From: Rhodobacterales bacterium 56_14_T64
GTDB taxonomy: Bacteria > Pseudomonadota > Alphaproteobacteria > Rhodobacterales > Rhodobacteraceae
Assembly: GCA_002162795.1 (NCBI GenBank)
Contig: MAAY01000007.1
Location: forward strand, 1-64,000
Reading direction: 5' to 3'
Length of the DNA: 64,000 bases
Positions 50,924 through 60,697 of this stretch are shown in pieces. Every line of letters begins with the position of its first letter. Positions within the stretch are counted from its first letter, which is position 1. The position numbers and the translations under genes were made by a program. The notes below the pieces were generated by a model, which was given only the letters and a program-made list of their open reading frames with translations, was not told the origin of the DNA and did not search any database.

Positions 50924-51583
50924 AGATATAATCCTCACAGTCCAGCCACGTTGCGGGCCAGTTACTCACAGACATCACTAGGTGCAAATTGCGGCTAAAT
51001 TGGGAAAAACTCGTGCAAGTTTTCCGACTATTCAAAGTTTATACACTTGTTGCCAGCGAGGCAAAGCAGAGTAAATTCAGTGAGGGTGTGAACGGTGGTG
51101 GCATTGATCAGCCGCGAGGGAGGCATCATCATCCGTTGGGAAAATAGGCTGCGATTCTTTTCTTGTGTCATCAGCTCATGAAAAGGGGCATGCCGCCAGG
51201 CCACCGCGTTTTCATGCAGGGTGAACAGTGCGTCGTCCAATCCGCGCTCGCCCAAGATTGCAGCTATGGCCGTCGTATAATGCCATACAGTTCTGTCTGT
51301 GTCTCTGCATTGGTTACATCCTGGAAATTGTTGAAAACACCGGGGAACCGGTAAAGTGCCATCTCGTGCTGATGGCCCAGCTATGCCAGAAGAAAGGTGG
51401 CCTCGTTGCATTGGGCTGCAATGGTGAGACAACGCATGGATCACTGATCTGGGTGGGCGGATTGGTGTTCGTGTCAGACCATACGCGGGCAGCACTGTTG
51501 CGCATAAGACCAAAGTACCAGCACAGCACGCTTGACCCTCAGGCTAGTGCATGGCCTGTTTGGGAAGCTACAGGAGGGTGCAG
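50924..51583. other. stretch without an intact gene upstream of the MoxR gene
   Basis: This 660-bp stretch includes the promoter region of the minus-strand 318-residue gene, a GGAAAA/TTTTCC inverted repeat near 51004-51025, and a possibly frameshifted minus-strand gene at 51028-51362. The plus-strand frame from 51228 to 51764 runs into the MoxR gene and looks spurious. Confidence 0.55.
51028..51362 (-). pseudogene. possible frameshifted gene remnant
   Basis: On the minus strand an ATG at 51362 opens a protein-like frame (MALYRFPGVFNNFQDV...) that stops near 51264. A different frame then runs on with YTTAIAAILGERGLDDAL, HAPFHELMTQEK and ends at 51028. Joined by one frameshift around 51288-51298, they would give about 110 residues. 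No family is recognised, so this may be chance. Confidence 0.25.
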
Positions 51584-52492
51584 ATGCGGCAAACAGAGAC
51601 AATCGAACATGTGCAGGCGTTACTGGCAGAGCAGGGCTATGTCTGCGGCCGGGCGCTGGCCGTGGTGGTGTTCCTGGCGCTGCGACTGGGTCGGCCGCTG
51701 TTCCTTGAGGGCGAGGCTGGCGTTGGCAAGACCGAAATCGCTAAGGCGCTGGCCGCCGGGCTGAACCGCCGCCTAATCCGGTTGCAATGCTACGAAGGAT
51801 TGGATGCCTCCTCGGCGGTCTATGAGTGGAACTTCCCGGCGCAGATGGTGGCTATCCGTACCGCTGAGGCAGCTGGCAGCGCGGACCGCGGTGCGCTTAA
51901 GGCCGAGCTGTTTTCCGATGAATTTCTGATCGAGCGCCCGCTGTTGCAGGCCATGCGCCCGGACGAGAACGGCTCTCCGGTTTTGCTGATCGATGAGCTG
52001 GATCGCACAGATGAGCCATTCGAGGCCTTCTTGCTTGAGGCGCTGTCAGATTTTCAGGTCACCATTCCAGAGCTGGGCACCATCAAGGCCCCCGAGCCGC
52101 CAATTGTGATCCTGACCTCAAACCGCACCCGCGAAGTGCATGACGCGCTGAAACGCCGTTGCCTGTATCACTGGGTGGATTATCCTGACTTCCAACGTGA
52201 GTTAGAAATCTTGCAAGCCCGCGCGCCTGAAACCAGCGCCAAGCTCAGCCGCGAGGTAGTGGCTTTTGTCCAGGGCCTGCGCACCGAGGATTTGTTCAAA
52301 AAACCCGGTGTGGCGGAAACCATCGACTGGGCCAATTGCTTGTTGGCGCTGGACGTGATCGATCTGTCCCCCGAAGTCATCGCCGATACCCTCGGCGCGA
52401 TTCTGAAATACCAGGACGACATCACCAAGCTGCAAGGATCCGAGGCCAAACGAATCCTTGATCAGGCCAAGGCCAGCCTGGTCCCCACTTAA
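51584..52492 (+). CDS. MoxR-type AAA ATPase (CoxD-like)
   Basis: This 302-residue MoxR-family ATPase has Walker A GEAGVGKTE (43-51), Walker B LLIDELDR and SNRTREVHDALKRRC. In carboxydotrophs the related CoxD works with a VWA protein (CoxE) to insert the metal centre into CO dehydrogenase. The next gene is such a VWA protein, and coxSLM lies 4 kb downstream, so a maturation role is likely. The ATG at 51584 has AGGAGGGTG upstream. Confidence 0.9.
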   Translation: MRQTETIEHVQALLAEQGYVCGRALAVVVFLALRLGRPLFLEGEAGVGKTEIAKALAAGLNRRLIRLQCYEGLDASSAVYEWNFPAQMVAIRTAEAAGSADRGALKAELFSDEFLIERPLLQAMRPDENGSPVLLIDELDRTDEPFEAFLLEALSDFQVTIPELGTIKAPEPPIVILTSNRTREVHDALKRRCLYHWVDYPDFQRELEILQARAPETSAKLSREVVAFVQGLRTEDLFKKPGVAETIDWANCLLALDVIDLSPEVIADTLGAILKYQDDITKLQGSEAKRILDQAKASLVPT

Positions 52493-52496
52493 TGCT

Positions 52497-52545
52497 TATT
52501 CTTGTTAAAAATACCTCGGGGGTGCGGGGGCTGGCCCCCGCGACT
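52497..52545 (-). repeat. GGTATTT-family repeat, copy 5
   Basis: Read on the minus strand: hairpin GCGGGGGCC-AGCCCCCGC, then ACCCCCGAGGTATTTTTAAC, then AAGAATAAGC. It occupies the gap between the MoxR and VWA genes and reaches the start of the VWA gene, reading against the direction of both. Confidence 0.7.
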
Positions 52546-52549
52546 GCCT

Positions 52550-53797
52550 TTGCCTGAACTGCCCCCATTGGTGATCCCCAATCAGCCAAAACTCGCGCAA
52601 AACATCACCCATTTTGCACGCGCCCTGCGCAAGGCCGGTTTGCCGATCGGTCCGGGGCGGGTGGTGGATGCAGTTGAGGCGGTGGCGGCCGCCGGTTTTA
52701 CGTCCCGTACAGACTTCTACTGGGCCTTGCACGCCTGTTTCGTCAGTAAACCCGAGCACCGGGTAATCTTTAGCCAGGTGTTTCGCCTGTACTGGCGTGA
52801 TCCGCGGTTTCTGGAACATATGATGGCAATGCTACTGCCTGCTATGCGAGGCGTTCAGGAAGAGAAACCCGCCAAACCGGGCGAAAAGCGTGCAGCCGAG
52901 GCGCTGCTGGACGGCACTCAGCCGGATCCCGAGCAAATCGAGAATGAAGAGGGGACTGAGGTTGAGTTCGAGGCGACACTCACCATGTCTGCCGAGGAAC
53001 GGCTGCGTACACTCGACTTTGAACAGATGAGCACCGACGAGGTTGCCCGAGCAAAACGCATTTTGGCGCAACTGTCGCTACCAGTGAAACCTATTCAGTC
53101 CCGCCGCCTGATTGCGGCCCCACGTGGCCCGCGACCGGATTGGCGCCGGACCCTGCGTAATGCGGCGCGTCACGGCGGGGAAATACAGACCATGGCGCGG
53201 GCCAAACGGCGCATTCGTTGGCCCAATCTGGTGGTGATCTGTGACATCTCCGGCTCGATGAGCCAATACAGTCGCATCATTCTGCATTTCCTGCACGCGG
53301 TCTCAAACGCCAAAGGGGCGGGCTGGGCAAAGGTGCATGGCTTTACCTTTGGCACCCGGCTGACCAATATCACTCGCCATCTGGCCCAACGCGACGTGGA
53401 TGCGGCGCTGGCTGCTGCAGGCGCAGAGGCGCAGGACTGGGAGGGCGGCACCCGGATTGGCGAATGCCTGCATCAGTTCAATCGCGACTGGTCGCGGCGG
53501 GTGATGGGCCAGGGCGCTGTGGTGCTGCTGATCACTGACGGGTTGGACCGGGACGACCCCGAGGCATTGGCGCGTGAAATGCAGCGGTTGCAGCTATCGG
53601 CGCGTCGATTGATCTGGCTGAACCCGCTGTTGCGCTGGGAGGGGTTTGCGCCCAAGGCTCAGGGCATTCGTGCCATGCTGCCACATGTAGACAGTTTTCG
53701 CGCTGGTCACTCTATTGCCTCGCTTGAAGAATTGGCACAGGTGATTTCCAATCCCGATGATCTCGGCGAAAAGGCGCGGTTGATGGGTTTGCTGTAG
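52550..53797 (+). CDS. VWA domain-containing CoxE-like protein
   Basis: This protein of about 415 residues has an N-terminal helical domain (NITHFARALRKAGLPIGPGRVVDAVEAV) and an acidic middle. The C-terminal von Willebrand A domain has the MIDAS motif CDISGSMSQY and VVLLITDGLDRDD. CoxE-type proteins pair with MoxR ATPases. The start is uncertain: a TTG at 52550 fits homologues best, a GTG at 52571 is possible, and an ATG at 52502 lies in the repeat. No classic ribosome-binding site is visible for the chosen start. Confidence 0.88.
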   Translation: MPELPPLVIPNQPKLAQNITHFARALRKAGLPIGPGRVVDAVEAVAAAGFTSRTDFYWALHACFVSKPEHRVIFSQVFRLYWRDPRFLEHMMAMLLPAMRGVQEEKPAKPGEKRAAEALLDGTQPDPEQIENEEGTEVEFEATLTMSAEERLRTLDFEQMSTDEVARAKRILAQLSLPVKPIQSRRLIAAPRGPRPDWRRTLRNAARHGGEIQTMARAKRRIRWPNLVVICDISGSMSQYSRIILHFLHAVSNAKGAGWAKVHGFTFGTRLTNITRHLAQRDVDAALAAAGAEAQDWEGGTRIGECLHQFNRDWSRRVMGQGAVVLLITDGLDRDDPEALAREMQRLQLSARRLIWLNPLLRWEGFAPKAQGIRAMLPHVDSFRAGHSIASLEELAQVISNPDDLGEKARLMGLL

Positions 53798-53809
53798 TCA
53801 GCTCAGACC

Positions 53810-54322
53810 CTAGGGGTGGCAGGCAGTGTCCGGCAATCGGTGCAGCAGAAAAACCTTGTCATCAGGCTCGCGGCGCAGCACCCGCTCTTCCTCACCGCAG
53901 TCTGAAAAGTAGAGATTGCTGCCGGTTTTAACGATGATCGACTCTGGGTTGCGGTCGACGACGTAAAAATGACCAGCATCACATTCCAAGCCACAGTGCA
54001 GACGGTCACCGTCTTGGGTACAGTAAACTTGGGCATCTCCGAGGGCTTGGCTGCGCAGTTGCACCGTTAGCATAAGCGACAGCACCGGAGTTTCGGGATA
54101 GCTGTGATAATCACCGCCCAGGCCGAGAAACTGTTGATCACCTGGAAAATGGTTCAGTCGAATCTCAACCACCTGCTGCTGCGGGTGTTCACTCATGTGC
54201 GTTTCTGAATAGTGACGTCCATAACAGCTGTTCGATCCTGAAAAGTTCTGTGTTAGCGGAGCTTGGGCCAATGTCGGGCCTGCCACAACGAGGGCCGCTA
54301 GAAGATTAGAAAACCGGAACAT
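53810..54322 (-). CDS. exported hypothetical protein
   Basis: This 170-residue protein has a signal peptide (MFRFSNLLAALVVAGPTLAQA). The mature part has six cysteines in the motifs NSCYG, VYCTQDGDRLHCGLECDAG, SDCGEEE and ACHP, so a disulfide-stabilised periplasmic or secreted domain is likely. The VYVVDRN and GSNLYFSDCG pattern gives a beta-rich impression. No family is recognised. It converges on the CoxE-like gene, and its strand is opposite to the surrounding cox genes. Confidence 0.72.
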   Translation of the reverse strand: MFRFSNLLAALVVAGPTLAQAPLTQNFSGSNSCYGRHYSETHMSEHPQQQVVEIRLNHFPGDQQFLGLGGDYHSYPETPVLSLMLTVQLRSQALGDAQVYCTQDGDRLHCGLECDAGHFYVVDRNPESIIVKTGSNLYFSDCGEEERVLRREPDDKVFLLHRLPDTACHP

Positions 54323-54640
54323 CTTGATCTCCGTTCTGAGACGATGCGGCAGCTTACCTTAGATAGTTCAAATTCAGAAATGGGAATATATTTAGTGTAA
54401 ACCATTGAGGTGAGGCAGGAATTTTATTCTGATATCTATATGTAGGCATTTAGGTGTGATTGGAACACCGATCTCCGTGGACATGTCCATGAATTGAAAA
54501 TGCAGGAGACCTGTAGCTTTCGTTTGGTGACCGTGGGGCCAATCAGGCCGCTTTGCAGTTTGGATAAATATCTCCACTACGACCAATTGGGGGCAGACGT
54601 CGCATCGGGATGGGGGCATAGTTGCCGACGGAGGATGACG
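54323..54640. other. AT-rich divergent promoter region before xdhC
   Basis: This 318-bp stretch lies between two divergently oriented genes and is richer in AT than its surroundings. It contains a 12-bp perfect palindrome TGGACATGTCCA at 54478-54489. No molybdenum-cofactor riboswitch is recognisable by eye. No gene is convincing. Confidence 0.55.
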
Positions 54641-55624
54641 ATGACCAATACCCACACCCGATTTGAAGACGCACCGGAAACTGCTCTGACATGGCACCGC
54701 GCAGGATATGGAGCCGCGCTGGCGACTGTGGTTCAAACTTGGGGTTCGGCGCCCCGGCGGACCGGATCTATGCTGGTGATCAGCGGTGACGGGCGCATGC
54801 AGGGCTCGGTCTCGGGCGGATGCGTCGAAGGCGCTGTGGTGCTGGAGGCGCAGGAGGCGTTGCAAGACGGCAAGCACCGTCTACTGGAATATGGCGTCAG
54901 CGACGAAGACGCTTTTGCGGTTGGGCTGGCCTGTGGTGGTACGATCAAGATTTTGGTCGAGCCGGTGGGATCGGCGATGCCGGTTGACCTGTTGGAGCAA
55001 CTGGTGGCGGCGCGCACCACGCGGCAGGTGCTGGCTTATGAAGTGAATATCCAAAGCGGAGTGCGACGACTTCTTCATAGCAGCTATCCGAACCGGATGC
55101 GGTTGGACCGCTCGGGGATGGAAGAGGACGAAGAGACCTTTGTTGCCGTGCACAATCCACCGCTGCGATTGATCTGTGTGGGGGCGGTGCATATCGCACA
55201 GGCTTTGGCCCCAATGGCGCGGATTGCGGGGTATGACCCTGTGTTGATTGACCCACGTGAGGCCTTTGCGTACTCGGACCGTTTTCCCGGCGAAGTCATT
55301 CTGGATGATTGGCCGGACGAGGCAGTGGCGAAACTGGAGCTGGATGCCCGCACGGCTCTTGTTTTATTGACACATGATCCCAAGCTGGATGATCCGGCCT
55401 TGCTGGCGGCCTTGGCTGGCGAGTGTTTCTATATTGGCGCGCTGGGATCAAAACGGACCCATGCCAAACGGGTAGAGCGGATGCTGGCTGCGGGGTTCAG
55501 TGAGGCGCAGATAGGGAGGATCCATGGGCCGATTGGTCTGGATATTGGTGCTGCGGGACCGGCAGAGATTGCTGTCTCTATTCTGGGTGAAATGACTGCC
55601 GTGCTGCGGGGCAAGGCAGAATGA
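54641..55624 (+). CDS. XdhC/CoxF-like maturation protein
   Basis: This 327-residue protein has the XdhC N-terminal domain (AGYGAALATVVQTWGSAPRRTGSMLVI, SVSGGCVEGAVV) and a C-terminal Rossmann domain (IGALGSKRTHAKRVERML, HGPIGLDIGA). XdhC family proteins bind molybdenum cofactor and deliver its sulfurated form to xanthine dehydrogenase-type enzymes. The start at 54641 is preferred over 54635 because of the GGAGG spacing. Its last 4 bp overlap the next gene, and coxSLM follow. Confidence 0.9.
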   Translation: MTNTHTRFEDAPETALTWHRAGYGAALATVVQTWGSAPRRTGSMLVISGDGRMQGSVSGGCVEGAVVLEAQEALQDGKHRLLEYGVSDEDAFAVGLACGGTIKILVEPVGSAMPVDLLEQLVAARTTRQVLAYEVNIQSGVRRLLHSSYPNRMRLDRSGMEEDEETFVAVHNPPLRLICVGAVHIAQALAPMARIAGYDPVLIDPREAFAYSDRFPGEVILDDWPDEAVAKLELDARTALVLLTHDPKLDDPALLAALAGECFYIGALGSKRTHAKRVERMLAAGFSEAQIGRIHGPIGLDIGAAGPAEIAVSILGEMTAVLRGKAE

Positions 55625-56619
55625 AGTTTGGCCAAGTACCGCTGAGTGAGGCCGCAGGGGCAATTCTGGCCCATTCCTTGCAAGCCGGTGGGCGCAAAAT
55701 CGCCAAGGGCACGGAACTGACAACTGTGGATCTAGCAGATCTCGAGGCCGAAGGGCTTAGCGAAATCACAGTAGCGCGTTTGGAAGTTGGAGATGTGCAG
55801 GAGAACGAGGCTGCGCTGGCGCTAGCCCAAATGATTGTTCCCGATCCGGAGGCTCAACATGTGCGGATCTCGGGGGCAGGCGCTGGGCGGGTGAACTTAT
55901 ACGCCGCGACCTGTGGTGTTGTCCAACTGGATGCCGAACAGCTGAAGGCCGTGAATGAAGTGGACCCAATGATTTCGATTGCCACTGTGCCGGGCTGGCA
56001 CAGGGTTGATGCAGGGGGCATGATTGCCACTATCAAAATCATCTCCTACGCAGTGCCTCAGTCCGCATTGCTGCGTGCCGGGGCGGGGGCTGGTGGCGCA
56101 CTAAAGGTGACAGCTCCGGCTTATGGATCAGCGACATTGATCGAGACACGGGTCAGCGATGACACGCCGTCAGACAAGGGCCGCGCTGCTATGGCTGGTC
56201 GGTTGGATCGCATGGGGCTGGAGCTGAGCCCACGGGTGGTTGTGCGCCATCACGAGGCGGAGCTGAGGCAGGCGATAGTGGAGGCTCCCGGAGACTTGGT
56301 GTTGATCCTGACTGGATCTGCTACCTCGGACCCCTTGGATGTGGCGCCGCAAGCCTTGCGATTGGCTGGCGGCGAGGTGACACGGTTTGGCATGCCGGTG
56401 GATCCGGGCAATCTGTTGTTCCTAGGCGCTCTGGGCGACAAGCCTGTGGTGGGCTTGCCGGGCTGTGCGCGATCTCCGGCACTGAATGGTGCCGATTGGG
56501 TGCTAGAACGGGTGATCTGTGGGATTGAAGTAGGTAACGGTGACATTGCGGCCATGGGAGTCGGCGGTCTGCTGAAGGAAATTCCCACCCGGCCAATGCC
56601 ACGCCGCAGTGAAAGTTGA
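55621..56619 (+). CDS. molybdopterin-binding protein (MoeA/MobA-related)
   Basis: This 332-residue protein starts MKFGQVPLSEAAGAILAHSLQAGGRKIAKG. In its C-terminal half is a MoaB/MogA-type domain (LVLILTGSATSDPLDVAPQALRLAGGEVTRFGMPVDPG, VVGLPGCARSPALNGADWVLERV). It lacks the NTP-transferase domain that some homologues carry. It is coupled to xdhC and precedes coxS by 196 bp, so it probably helps to make or hand over the molybdenum cofactor for that enzyme. Confidence 0.82.
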   Translation: MKFGQVPLSEAAGAILAHSLQAGGRKIAKGTELTTVDLADLEAEGLSEITVARLEVGDVQENEAALALAQMIVPDPEAQHVRISGAGAGRVNLYAATCGVVQLDAEQLKAVNEVDPMISIATVPGWHRVDAGGMIATIKIISYAVPQSALLRAGAGAGGALKVTAPAYGSATLIETRVSDDTPSDKGRAAMAGRLDRMGLELSPRVVVRHHEAELRQAIVEAPGDLVLILTGSATSDPLDVAPQALRLAGGEVTRFGMPVDPGNLLFLGALGDKPVVGLPGCARSPALNGADWVLERVICGIEVGNGDIAAMGVGGLLKEIPTRPMPRRSES

Positions 56620-56815
56620 TCCGCCACTCGGCGGGAGGCCTCCTACTTTAGTCTATGGTGATATTTAGATAAGCACTTTAATTTCAATTGGTTAGCTTTG
56701 CATTTCTGTAGGGATCACCCTGTGGGAGAGCTTGTGAGCGTTCAAATCACTTCGCAGATGTCCGATCCCGTGCTTAACTCGCTGTAGCCAATAGAAATAG
56801 CTAAGGGAGGGGTTC

Positions 56816-57301
56816 ATGGCGAAGGTCTCAATGACCGTGAACGGCAAAGCTGCCAGTGCAGAGGTCGAGGGGCGCACGCTCCTGGTCTCGTTTTTGCGCG
56901 AGGAGCTTGGCCTCACGGGGACACACGTCGGATGTGATACCAGCCAATGCGGTGCCTGTGTGGTGCACGTGGATGGCAAAGCAGTGAAAAGCTGTACGAT
57001 GCTGGCGCTGGAAGCTGAGGGGGCCGAGGTGGCCACCATCGAAGGACAAGCAGAGCCTGATGGGACACTCAACACGATCCAGGCAGCGTTCCGGGAACAC
57101 CATGGTTTGCAGTGCGGATTTTGCACGCCTGGCATGGTGATGTCAGCGGCGGCTTTGTTGAAAGACAATCCAAAGCCCTCGGAACAGGATGTTCGTGAAT
57201 ATCTGGAGGGCAATCTGTGCCGCTGCACTGGTTATCATAATATCGTCAAGTCGATCATGGCAGCCAGCGGGCAGGATGTTTCTGCTCTCGCGGCGGAATG
57301 A
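56816..57301 (+). CDS. coxS: CO dehydrogenase-type (2Fe-2S) small subunit
   Basis: This 161-residue subunit carries two 2Fe-2S clusters: C40, C45, C48 and C60 in the plant-ferredoxin-like domain, and C100, C103, C135 and C137 in the helical domain ([14 protein letters not shown]). It belongs to the xanthine oxidase family. The ATG at 56816 has GGGAGGGG upstream. coxL follows after a 145-bp gap with two REP-like elements. Confidence 0.95.
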
Positions 57302-57327
57302 CAGCTCAGCGACGATCAACGGCTCAA

Positions 57328-57353
57328 GGTGCGTGATGAACACGCACCCTACA
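57328..57353 (-). repeat. REP-like element, copy A
   Basis: GGTGCGTG - ATGAA - CACGCACC, followed by CTACAC. Read on the minus strand it is the same TAGGGTGCGTG element as at 34071. It lies 26 bp after the coxS stop. Confidence 0.75.
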
Positions 57354-57398
57354 CAAGGCGCATGGCTTGGGTGGTTTTGCCCCAAAGGTCAGCTGTAG

Positions 57399-57424
57399 GT
57401 GTAGGGTGTGTGCTTGCACGCACC
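57399..57424 (+). repeat. REP-like element, copy B
   Basis: GTGTAGGGTGTGTG - CTTG - CACGCACC. One G-T pair interrupts the stem. It is in opposite orientation to copy A, 45 bp away, so the two could pair as a doublet. Confidence 0.75.
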
Positions 57425-57446
57425 ATTCAGGGAGAGGATATAAAAC

Positions 57447-59810
57447 ATGCCTAAGGATAGTGGCATTGGCGCTAGCCCAAAGCGGCGCGAAGACGTTAGG
57501 TTCCTGACCGGGAACGGCAATTATACTGATGACATCAACGCCCATGGCCAAGCCTATGTGCATTTTCTGCGCTCTGATCTGGCCCACGGTAAAATCAACG
57601 GCATTGATACGGCTGCAGCCGAGGCAATGCCCGGTGTTGTGAGGATCTTCACTGCGGCTGATTTCGAGGCCGTCGGCGGCGTGCCCTGCGGCTGGCAGAT
57701 CACTGATCGCCATGGCGAAGTGATGCAAGAACCCAAGCATCCGATCCTAGCCGAAGGCAAAGTGCGCCATGTTGGCGAAGCGATTGCTGCGGTGGTTGCG
57801 GATAGCCCCGAGCAGGCGCGCGACGCCGCCGAGGCGATTGAGCTGGATATCGAAGAGCTGCCCGCGGTCATTGATATGAAGGCCGCGGTAGCAGACAGTT
57901 CGGTCAAAGTTCACGATGATCTGACCTCGAACCTTTGTTTTGACTGGGGATTTGTCGAGGAAAACCGCGAGGCGGTGGAGCAGGCGTTTCAAGACGCGGC
58001 GCATGTCACCACTTTAGAGTTGATCAACAACCGGTTGATCGCCAACCCAATGGAGCCGCGGGTGGCAATTGGCGAGTATAACCGGTCCAGCGATGACAGT
58101 ACGCTGTACACCACCAGCCAGAACCCGCATGTGATCCGGCTGCTGATGGGCGCCTTTGTGCTGGGTATCCCTGAGCATAAGCTGCGTGTTGTGGCGCCAG
58201 ATGTGGGCGGTGGCTTCGGCACCAAGATTTTCCACTACGCAGAAGAGGCTTTTTGTACCTTTGCTGCAAAGGCCTGTAACCGGGCGATCAAGTGGACCTC
58301 GTCGCGATCCGAGGCGTTCATGTCAGACGCCCATGGCCGCGATCATGTGTCTAAAATCGAGTTGGCGCTGGACGCGGACAATAACTTTACGGCGGTGCGC
58401 ACTGATACCTACGCCAACATGGGCGCTTATCTGTCGACCTTTGCGCCAGCTGTGCCAACCTGGTTGCATGGCATCCTGATGGCCGGCAATTACAAAACGC
58501 CTCTGGTCTATGTGAACGTCAAGGCGGTGTTTACCAATACGGTGCCGGTGGATGCTTACCGCGGCGCTGGGCGGCCCGAAGCGACGTTCCAGTTGGAGCG
58601 GGTGGTTGATAAGGCCGCACGAGAGTTGGGCGTTGATCCGATTGCGCTGCGGCGGCAGAACTTCATCACCGAATTCCCCTATGCCACCCCAGTGGCGGTG
58701 GAATATGACACCGGTGATTACAATGCGACCATGGACAAGCTGGAAGAGATTGCCGACCTGTCTGGATTTGCAACGCGCCGCGCCGCAAGCGAGGCAAAAG
58801 GTAAGATCCGAGGGCTTGGCGTCAATTGCTATATCGAGGCTTGCGGCATTGCGCCGTCAAATCTGGTTGGACAACTTGGGGCACGCGCTGGTCTGTATGA
58901 AAGTGCGACAGTGCGGGTGAATGCGACGGGTGGTCTGGTGGTGATGACCGGATCACACAGCCATGGTCAAGGTCACGAGACCGCGTTTCCGCAGGTGATT
59001 GCCGAGATGATCGGCATCGACGAGAGCATGATTGAGATTGTGCACGGTGATACTGCAAAAGTGCCGATGGGTATGGGTACCTATGGTTCGCGGTCGCTGG
59101 CTGTTGGTGGCTCTGCCATGGTTAAGGCAACCGAGAAGATCATTGCCAAGGCCAAGAAGATTGCCGCCCATCTGATGGAGGCCGCGGACGCTGACATTGA
59201 GTTGAAAGATGGCCAGTTTTCGGTTGCGGGGACGGATAAGTCGGTGGCTTGGGGCGATGTGACCCTGGCGGCTTATGTTCCGCATAATTATCCGTTGGAG
59301 GATATTGAGCCGGGGTTGGAAGAGACCGCGTTTTATGATCCGTCCAACTTTACCTACCCATCTGGGGCTTATGCTTGCGAAGTTGAGGTTGATCCTGACA
59401 CAGGTAAGGTCAGCATCGAGCGGTTCTCGGCTGCGGATGATTTTGGCAATATCGTCAATCCGATGATTGTGGACGGTCAGGTGCATGGCGGTATTGGCCA
59501 GGGCATTGGTCAGGCGCTTCTGGAGGGCTGTGTCTATGATGAGAACGGTCAACTGCTGAGTGCATCCTTTATGGACTACGCAATGCCGAGAGCGGATGAC
59601 CTGCCATTTTATGCGGTGGATCATTCCTGTCAGACTCCCTGTACGCACAACCCATTGGGGGTCAAGGGCTGTGGTGAGGCAGGGGCCATTGGCTCGCCGC
59701 CTGCCGTCGTGAATGCGGTGGTGGATGCGCTGCAATCGGCGGGCAAGAATGTCACTCATATCGATATGCCACTGAGCCCGGGTCGGGTTTGGGCGGCGAT
59801 GAATGGCTGA
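57447..59810 (+). CDS. coxL: form II CO dehydrogenase-like large (molybdenum) subunit
   Basis: This 787-residue subunit binds the molybdenum cofactor. The active-site loop is AYRGAGR (370-376), which marks form II. True CO dehydrogenases (form I) have AYRCSFR, whose cysteine binds copper. GGGFGTK (254-260) and the C-terminal catalytic glutamate in [12 protein letters not shown] are present. It probably oxidises an aldehyde, purine or aromatic N-heterocycle, and CO oxidation is not supported. The gene order S-L-M is also that of form II. Confidence 0.95.
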
Positions 59811-59819
59811 TTTGGAGAG

Positions 59820-59875
59820 CGCCGGGGGGGCAGCCCCCCGGACCCCCCGAGGTATTTGGAACAAGAAGAACGAGG
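59820..59875 (+). repeat. GGTATTT-family repeat, copy 6
   Basis: GGGGGGCAGCCCCCC hairpin, then ACCCCCCGAGGTATTT and GGAACAAGAAGAACG. It fills most of the gap between coxL and coxM, reading with the genes. Confidence 0.72.
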
Positions 59876-59911
59876 GAGATGTCCCTTTGATTTTTGGGAA
59901 GGAAGGACGAA

Positions 59912-60697
59912 ATGTATAATTTCGATTATGAGGCGCCTTCGAGTGTTGCTGAGGCCGTGGCGGCACTGGCGGCGGAAGATGCGCAAGCGTTGGGCGGTGG
60001 TCAGACGTTGATCCCTACTATGAAGCAACGGCTGGCGATGCCGTCGACCTTGGTGAGTCTGAGCGGAATTGCTGAGATGAAGGGTTTTGACGTGGGAAAT
60101 GGAGCTGTTACGATTGGTGGGAACGTGACCCATGCAGTGGTTGCGGCCGGCGCGGGTGCCTATCCGGCACTGGCAGAGTTGGCCAGTCACATTGGCGATC
60201 CAGCGGTGCGCAACCGCGGCACGATTGGTGGGTCTTTGGCCAACAATGACCCATCGGCGGATTATCCGGCGGCGGCGCTGGCCTCGGCTGCGGTGATTGT
60301 CACCAATGCGCGCGAGATTGCAGCGGATGACTATTTTCAGGGCATGTTCACCACAGCATTGGAAGACGGCGAGATCATCACTGGCGTGCGGTTCGCGGTT
60401 CCTGAGGTCGCGAACTATCAGAAGTTCGTTCAGCCAGCCTCGCGCTTTGCGCTTGTTGGGGTGTTTGTTGCCAAACACGCTGATGGAGTACGGGTGGCGG
60501 TGACTGGCGCCTCGGAAGAAGGGGTGTTCCGCTGGGCTGCGGCTGAGGCTGCGCTGAACGATTCGTTTAGTGCAGATGCAGTGGCTGATTTGGCTGTGGA
60601 TCCGGCGAATATGATCGGCGATCTGCATGGCACCAAGGCGTATCGTGCCCATTTGGTTGGGGTGATGACCAAGCGTGCGGTTGCTGCTGCAACCTGA
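59912..60697 (+). CDS. coxM: FAD-binding medium subunit
   Basis: This 261-residue FAD-binding subunit has ALGGGQTLIPTMKQRLA (FAD loop) and SHIGDPAVRNRGTIGGSLANNDPSADYPAA, the typical signature of the family. It passes electrons from CoxS to the acceptor. The ATG at 59912 has GGAAGGACG upstream. It ends with a terminator at 60719. Confidence 0.95.
   Translation: MYNFDYEAPSSVAEAVAALAAEDAQALGGGQTLIPTMKQRLAMPSTLVSLSGIAEMKGFDVGNGAVTIGGNVTHAVVAAGAGAYPALAELASHIGDPAVRNRGTIGGSLANNDPSADYPAAALASAAVIVTNAREIAADDYFQGMFTTALEDGEIITGVRFAVPEVANYQKFVQPASRFALVGVFVAKHADGVRVAVTGASEEGVFRWAAAEAALNDSFSADAVADLAVDPANMIGDLHGTKAYRAHLVGVMTKRAVAAAT

Follow-up and report, generated by a model that had tools for sequence, protein, structure and literature searches.

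A form II CoxSLM locus in a Rhodobacterales genome and the probably copper-independent task of its CoxD/CoxE helpers

Rhodobacterales bacterium 56_14_T64 carries, on contig MAAY01000007.1 of assembly GCA_002162795.1, a three-subunit molybdenum (Mo) hydroxylase of the form II CoxSLM type together with genes for CoxD- and CoxE-like helper proteins. The locus lies in the 64,000-nucleotide stretch analysed here (the window), which is on contig 54 of a 4.34 Mb genome that we label G000; other G and L numbers are our labels for genomes and loci. A preliminary description of the window had placed a MoxR ATPase, a VWA protein, an XdhC-like protein and a molybdopterin (MPT)-binding protein beside coxS-L-M, and all of these are open reading frames (ORFs) on the plus strand between 51584 and 60697 (Table 1). 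The large subunit lacks the cysteine by which form I enzymes bind copper. Comparison of genomes suggests that the helpers, which have been thought to insert copper, more likely serve a copper-independent activation of Mo enzymes. Protein calls at the locus were judged by Pfam and NCBIfam profile searches and by inspection of motifs.

Table 1. Features of the form II CoxSLM locus, with positions in the window
Feature	Position	Strand	Evidence
MoxR-type AAA+ ATPase, CoxD-like, form II lineage	51584..52492	+	PF07728 E 1.3e-10; form II CoxD clade
VWA_CoxE protein, CoxE-like	52502..53797	+	PF05762 E 1.4e-65
170-aa ORF between CoxE and XdhC	53810..54322	-	open reading frame
XdhC/CoxI-family Mo cofactor chaperone	~54635..55624	+	PF13478 (XdhC_C) E 1.8e-40, PF02625 (XdhC_CoxI) E 6.8e-26
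MPT-binding (MoCF_biosynth) protein	55621..56619	+	PF00994 only, E 1.5e-7
coxS, two [2Fe-2S] subunit	56816..57301	+	PF01799 E 3.4e-33; 8 Cys
coxL form II, Mo subunit	57447..59810	+	PF02738/PF20256/PF01315; form II clade
AYRGAGR active-site loop (Gly at the Cu-binding Cys position of form I)	58554..58574	+	CoxL residues 370-376
coxM, FAD subunit	59894..60697	+	PF00941 (FAD_binding_5) E 5.8e-41

The CoxD- and CoxE-like partners named in the preliminary description are indeed present. CoxD is a MoxR-type ATPase with intact Walker A (GEAGVGKT) and Walker B (LLIDELD) motifs and an adjoining VWA gene; its reading frame opens at 51551, with an ATG at 51584. CoxE carries the VWA_CoxE domain with the MIDAS-type motifs DISGSM, GGTRIG and TDGLD (DxSGS/T/D). 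XdhC matches PDB 2we7 (E 1.6e-54), and its gene overlaps that of the MPT-binding protein by 4 bases. The genes coxD, coxE, xdhC, the MPT-binding gene, coxS and coxL are co-located in the same orientation in all seven same-genus relatives examined, so the grouping is not due to chance; coxM is also present in these relatives except in L057, whose contig ends there. Across the seven genomes CoxL is 76-98% identical. The six nearest named CoxD proteins, 85-88% identical, come from Roseobacter, Tateyamaria, Pseudophaeobacter, Leisingera and Primorskyibacter.

The minus-strand ORF separates CoxE from XdhC, and the helpers therefore need not share one transcript. This ORF has no Pfam or NCBIfam match and clusters with an ORF of the same-genus locus L054 and of no other same-genus locus; by eye, its start resembles a signal peptide. 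An intergenic element that contains a GC-rich palindrome occurs in two inverted copies, one in the coxD-coxE gap (52496-52539) and the other in the coxL-coxM gap (59825-59870). As the TTG start of CoxE falls inside this element, it is doubtful, and the true start is probably downstream of the repeat; ATG 59912 is the likely start of coxM, the starts of both proteins being uncertain. A genome-wide repeat was considered and dropped, since the core of the element has just 4 places in the whole genome at up to 2 mismatches. An RGD motif was sought in the XdhC of the window and in form I CoxF, and its absence from both is uninformative.

In an alignment with the CO dehydrogenase (CODH) 1n5w, the AYRCSFR loop of that enzyme falls on the AYRGAGR of the window. 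Gly373 thus takes the place of the copper-binding Cys in the form I pattern (A/S)YRCS(F/L)R, which bears out the form II assignment made beforehand. Glu744 of CoxL (GCGEAG) and the Gln of TSQNPH are kept. The gene order coxS-coxL-coxM is that of form II, and CoxL falls inside the Gly-type clade, apart from the Cys-type enzymes (100/100). The enzyme is thus a form II Mo hydroxylase, predicted from its motif to be copper-free. Against the CODH equivalog model TIGR02416, CoxL scores 604.6, with a cut-off of 991.15. The best NCBIfam matches of the three subunits are to the archaeal glyceraldehyde dehydrogenase (NF041018-NF041020) at 634, 201 and 224 bits, all below the cut-offs of 790, 350 and 290 (CoxL 634.2 vs 790), and the nearest solved structures to the large subunit are CO dehydrogenases (8uem, 570 bits), quinoline oxidoreductase and Kdh. 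As a first guess the substrate is an aldehyde, and CO is unlikely. Since form II CoxL occurs in 194 of the 246 genera of the family sample described below, a general role, for instance with small aldehydes, would fit this breadth better than a niche pathway.

The helper set had also been called complete, which does not hold locally, as a MocA-type domain and CoxG are encoded elsewhere in the genome. The MPT-binding protein of the window has 332 aa and no MobA-like NTP-transferase (MocA-type) domain; in several relatives the ORF has about 540 aa, and the 541-aa homologue of L056 has a fused MobA-like domain (PF12804). The nearest match to this domain in G000 is on contig 20 (41% identity), while contig 47 carries a second CoxG (56%). 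Contig 25 holds a form I CoxL (SYRCSFR) with homologues of M, S, D, E and XdhC and with CoxG, so this cell has two separate CoxD/E pairs. A third CoxD match, on contig 35, belongs to the 34-35% identity class and is presumably CobS-like. In all, the genome carries 8 MoCoBD matches.

The association of helpers and enzyme extends across the family. We searched 246 genomes, one per genus and at least 95% complete, with CoxE and CoxL. CoxE matches fall into a class with E <=1e-100 (185 genomes; CoxE-II), a class between 1e-38 and 1e-50 (9 genomes, a form I-type score) and no match (52); CoxL is either at E <=1e-250 (194 genomes; CoxL-II) or at best at 9e-181 (52). Both CoxE-II and CoxL-II are found in 182 genomes, CoxL-II only in 12, CoxE-II only in 3 and neither in 49 (Fisher p 2.3e-36, with the 246 related genomes treated as independent). 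Up to 4 CoxL and up to 7 CoxE candidates were scored per genome, so a few could be missed, and counts were made by hand. Other members of the enzyme family rarely bring CoxE-II with them, because the CoxL query finds some other match in 51 of the 52 genomes that lack CoxL-II, and just 3 of the 52 have CoxE-II. When all CoxL candidates of these three were scored, G164 proved to have a CoxL-II fragment (294 residues, 83%). A single CoxE match is found in 112 of the 185 CoxE-II genomes (hand tally), which thus have no form I CoxE copy visible to the search.

Physical linkage is much looser. It was scored in the 130 genera with both genes among the 150 matches listed for each: CoxE and CoxL lie within 12 kb of one another in 41, farther apart on the same contig in 19 and on different contigs in 70, a class that contig breaks inflate. 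The preliminary description had named helpers lying mainly away from cox genes in relatives as the finding that would undo the association. By position this is what we see (89 of the 130 genera); in sense it is not, given that CoxE-II accompanies CoxL-II genome-wide and is scarce where CoxL-II is lacking. A scan of named genomes with CoxD points the same way. Among the matches listed, the best 80 loci, which have alphaproteobacterial titles and several of which are cut by contig ends, contain CoxE in 74 cases, XdhC in 62, the MPT-binding gene in 59, CoxS in 43, CoxL in 34 and CoxG in 25. Neither CoxL nor CoxS lies in the stretch examined at 36 of the 80, and form II CoxL occurs elsewhere in 19 of the 19 genomes searched from those 36 detached loci; at least 4 of these 19 give CoxL coordinates that also occur in the family sample, and to that extent the two counts overlap. 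A regular-expression tally of CoxE ORFs from automatic gene calling, in which 81 of 95 had DxSGS, was left unused because such calls may be in the wrong frame or cover only part of a gene.

Ten of the 80 loci (L177-L180, L182-L184, L186, L188, L189), in Bradyrhizobium, Rhodopseudomonas and one metagenome-assembled genome (MAG), have the arrangement CoxG-CoxS-CoxM-CoxD-CoxE-XdhC-MPT with no CoxL near. A split enzyme was considered for them and rejected: the S and M genes are a second pair, and a full CoxS-L-M of form II identity (55-59%) lies elsewhere in all 6 of the genomes searched. We also surveyed the neighbours of coxSLM detached from its helpers, at 48 loci and over 6 kb (3 of 51 loci of the L-set and 6 of 52 of the E-set were dropped, as no anchor gene was called). 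CoxG lies within 6 kb in 23 of the 48, at a median distance of 52 bases, which fits electron transfer to the membrane; the MPT-binding gene is near 11 loci, XdhC near 8, and every other family near 13 at most. No catabolic partner stood out within 6 kb of these loci, and the attempt to deduce the substrate from gene neighbours was dropped. TRAP-TAXI transporter genes near form II coxSLM on a Ruegeria and an Azospirillum plasmid (L275, L283) were a possible hint of the substrate, set aside because two records are too few to use. In one genome (G016:C3:134657-137015), the form II CoxL match is divided between two reading frames (residues 1-555 and 554-787), a pattern that a frameshift, an error in sequencing or a genuinely split gene would each produce.

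Trees provide the second line of evidence, as they reveal whether the helpers follow the metal. Cys-type and Gly-type CoxL separate fully in a tree of 26 rows (100/100), and there a single clade of the four haloarchaeal CoxL is rejected (p 5e-43). In a tree of 37 rows, from which the CoxL of Halalkalicoccus was left out (longest ORF 411 aa), the Cys-type proteins form one clade. For CoxD, a first tree rooted on distant MoxR proteins was rejected because of branch lengths of 10, and CoxD-like proteins with no Mo enzyme near were used as outgroup. Bacterial form II CoxD is a clade (100/100 in one tree, 100/99 in another), and the bacterial Cys-type CoxD clade is weaker (83/59; 97/94 without Deinococcus). 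The CoxD of Natronorubrum, whose client is of the Cys type, is nevertheless inside a haloarchaeal clade with Gly-type clients (100/99), as sister to Halorientalis (96/80). It is 65-77% identical to three CoxD proteins from haloarchaeal Gly-type operons and 49-55% to four bacterial Cys-type ones, whereas Natronorubrum CoxL is 45-48% identical to haloarchaeal Gly-type and 54-60% to bacterial Cys-type CoxL. One clade of Cys-type CoxD is rejected at p 4.7e-7 (12 such rows of 43) and, with long rows left out, at an approximately unbiased (AU) p of 1.8e-8 (11 of 37 rows), values that describe and do not prove, since the topology tests were run after the trees were seen. The CoxE tree likewise groups the haloarchaeal rows, with 99 in the Shimodaira-Hasegawa-like approximate likelihood ratio test (SH-aLRT). 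CoxD and CoxE are neither restricted to Cys-type clients nor, with a single operon as the discordant Cys-type case, of one lineage with them, as a device for copper insertion should be. Because the pair keeps its lineage while the client switches between Cys and Gly types, its task, most simply, would not involve copper.

The range of clients is consistent with this. On the nicotine plasmid pAO1 a MoxR-VWA-XdhC run stands with kdhC, an SRPBCC gene and a gene for 'nicotine blue oxidoreductase', a protein that carries the name mocA on the sister plasmid (L271, L279). The KdhC loop, AYRAPGR, has no Cys; the Kdh structure paper describes the molybdopterin cytosine dinucleotide (MCD), Fe2S2 and FAD, and the word 'copper' does not occur in its main text (PMC8305194). 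COXD (ORF76) and COXG (ORF78) of pAO1 appear in a table of plasmid proteins differentially regulated under nicotine (PMC6214936). Three haloarchaeal plasmids, of Halobaculum, Halococcus and Halorientalis, have the arrangement SRPBCC-S-L-M-MoxR-VWA-XdhC with AYRGAGR, the Halorientalis operon running across the start of its record. The Halalkalicoccus plasmid L287 keeps SRPBCC, MoxR, VWA and XdhC with only a C-terminal piece of CoxL (the 411-aa ORF) and no annotated coxS or coxM, so that its operon looks cut down. A third type of Mo hydroxylase, with its large subunit in two genes, adjoins CoxD/E in L282 (Yoonia, AMRGFG), L086 and L087; the Yoonia cluster looks catabolic and also has SRPBCC, flotillin-like, amidohydrolase and FAH genes. 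In one case, Halobaculum L278 (10674-13928), genes for YeeE/YedE, MBL-fold, TusA and DsrE-like proteins adjoin the Gly-type SLM-MoxR-VWA-XdhC operon, and the TusA, DsrE and YeeE/YedE genes are a possible sulfur supply for it. The preliminary description had asked why a copper-free enzyme needs such partners, and the premise of that question weakens if the pair is no copper device, as the trees and the context on the nicotine plasmid lead us to favour.

From gene content, motifs, co-inheritance and tree discordance we infer a copper-independent activation step for CoxD and CoxE, probably sulfuration or remodelling of the Mo site, with copper as an extra step of form I; we regard this as the probable explanation. 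MocA, encoded elsewhere, and the MPT-binding protein would supply the Mo cofactor as the cytosine dinucleotide, and XdhC would hold it. A CoxD ring, coupled to its VWA partner CoxE, would then spend ATP on opening or reshaping the apoenzyme after it has folded, allowing a sulfido ligand to be put on, or restored to, Mo. Electrons would pass from the Fe-S clusters to FAD and on to the membrane, probably with CoxG acting in trans. The task shared by all clients would be sulfuration or ATP-driven opening of the site; CoxE would belong to this machinery without being a copper protein in its own right, and copper would be a step added by form I enzymes. Other MoxR-VWA pairs act as enzyme activases. 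The Mo sulfido ligand is required by this enzyme family (PMC8305194, PMC2997495). Under the published form I model, the Mo site depends on CoxD for its sulfuration and on CoxE together with CoxF for its copper; the enzyme of a coxD mutant has a [MoO3] site, and loss of Mo=S without the helper is reported, in the papers covered, for form I coxD only (PMC4240915). CoxD and CoxE may in addition give the sulfido ligand back to enzyme from which it has been lost; if true, this would explain why 185 of the 246 genera keep the pair, mostly away from the enzyme genes. More tentatively, we speculate that the pair could be a general, metal-independent activase of many bacterial and archaeal Mo hydroxylases, older than the copper site, with copper arriving later, in form I.

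Several observations weigh against this copper-independent step. The archaeal discordance sets a single Cys-type operon, that of Natronorubrum, against three Gly-type operons that are intact and the truncated one of Halalkalicoccus, and in the CoxE tree the Deinococcus Cys-type protein does not group with the rest of the bacterial Cys-type proteins. Related MoxR-VWA pairs are also found where no Mo enzyme is nearby. Other enzymes of the family have been described with XdhC-type chaperones alone. In Thermomicrobium roseum the form I cluster (L292, AYRCSFR) has XdhC but neither CoxD nor CoxE within 6 kb, and the plasmid that carries it is absent from all 53 records matched in the CoxD search. 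Within the family, 12 of the 194 CoxL-II genomes have no CoxE-II: there is no CoxD match at E 1e-30 in four of them (G092, G156, G198, G204), the best CoxD match is at 34-35% in G152 and G245, five have a best CoxD of 53-55%, a form I-like score, and G250 has CoxD-II. Outside the family, G028, which has a distant CoxE, and G035, which is 77% complete, have CoxL-II without a form II-type CoxE. Since these exceptions exist, the pair is usual with CoxL-II and not strictly required. The enzyme of a coxE mutant, finally, has its sulfur complete and lacks copper (PMC3471820, PMC4240915). As these data assign CoxE to copper, its persistence with Cys-less enzymes needs another or a broader role; the two could be reconciled if CoxE serves the last step in either case, or if the loss of CoxF, which is also missing in the coxE mutant (PMC4240915), was what acted.

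Other explanations account for parts of the same evidence. CoxD and CoxE might act after assembly, recruiting the enzyme with CoxG to the membrane or the quinone pool and taking no part at the Mo site. No gene lies close to detached form II coxSLM more often than CoxG, and CoxD is reported to be membrane-associated and CoxE membrane-bound (PMC4240915, PMC3471820). In O. carboxidovorans, however, mutation of coxD or coxE leaves the enzyme with a defective metal site, and a coxG mutant makes functional enzyme (PMC4240915), so we think this role rather unlikely. A general Mo cofactor helper for many enzymes, not dedicated to form II CoxSLM, would sit well with the looseness of linkage; its XdhC and MPT/MocA components might act on further MCD enzymes, and G000 has 8 MoCoBD proteins. 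Such a helper should not be confined as it is, however, with CoxE-II in 3 of the 52 genomes that lack CoxL-II and mostly hold other CoxL-query matches, and G000 keeps another CoxD/E pair for its form I enzyme; this explanation is improbable.

Proposals that retain a role for a metal, or for CO, fare less well than a copper-independent activation step. Form II might bind copper or another second metal through other ligands, with CoxD and CoxE inserting it, and CoxD, CoxE and CoxF together have been discussed as a possible Cu-chelatase (PMC3471820). No Cys is found in the form II CoxL loops among those listed, and the same type of pair stands beside Kdh, for which the main text of the structure paper makes no mention of copper (PMC8305194), so we consider a second metal very improbable. 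Hardly to be expected at all is a true low-affinity CO dehydrogenase, even though CO dehydrogenases are among the nearest solved large subunits and some authors speculate along these lines and list form II-only CO oxidisers (PMC5747140): the copper-binding Cys is absent, and the CODH model score is below its cut-off.

Form II and its motif are well documented, as are the doubts about its activity on CO (PMC13240472, PMC6794299, PMC13203968). CoxG is usual among form II accessory genes when compared with D, E and F (PMC5747140), and in SAR202 MAGs with form II, coxD, coxE and coxF are found in other parts of the genome (PMC11411561). The latter paper (2024), citing earlier work, states that form II-only roseobacters 'lacked the accessory genes', a view with which CoxE-II in 182 of 194 CoxL-II genomes contrasts. 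Surveys of operons would miss CoxE-II because it is more often unlinked than linked to CoxL-II. According to a table in PMC13203968, many genomes that lack form I coxL have CoxE and CoxG: 60 of 60 and 5 of 5 in some species clusters, none or one in others. This is consistent with form II having its own helper set and does not show it. The open-licence literature searched, as far as its accessible text goes, yielded no statement of CoxE/CoxL co-inheritance, of CoxD/E discordance or of a shared, distinct CoxD/E lineage of form II; the co-occurrence across 246 genomes, the other Cys-less clients of CoxD/E and the discordance between CoxL and CoxD are new here. The presence of CoxE or CoxD should not serve as a marker of CO oxidation.

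The form I cluster coxMSLDEFG of O. carboxidovorans (pHCG3, L276) shares with the window the MoxR, VWA, XdhC and CoxG helpers around a heterotrimeric Mo enzyme, and its CoxD is 51% identical; it differs in its M-S-L order, in the copper ligand of AYRCSFR and, among bacteria, in separate CoxD and CoxE clades. The pAO1 nicotine cluster resembles the window in joining a Cys-less Mo hydroxylase to SRPBCC, MoxR, VWA and XdhC proteins. It differs in its AYRAPGR loop, in a known pyridine substrate and in a CoxD on a long branch, 51% identical over 80%. The archaeal glyceraldehyde dehydrogenase is the nearest curated family for each subunit, at scores short of membership. In other form II organisms accessory coxD/E/F or coxG have been reported (PMC11411561, PMC5747140). 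The closest known systems are the form II coxSLM of roseobacters and rhizobia, which are like the window in the AYRGAGR motif and the S-L-M order and from which it shows no difference in kind.

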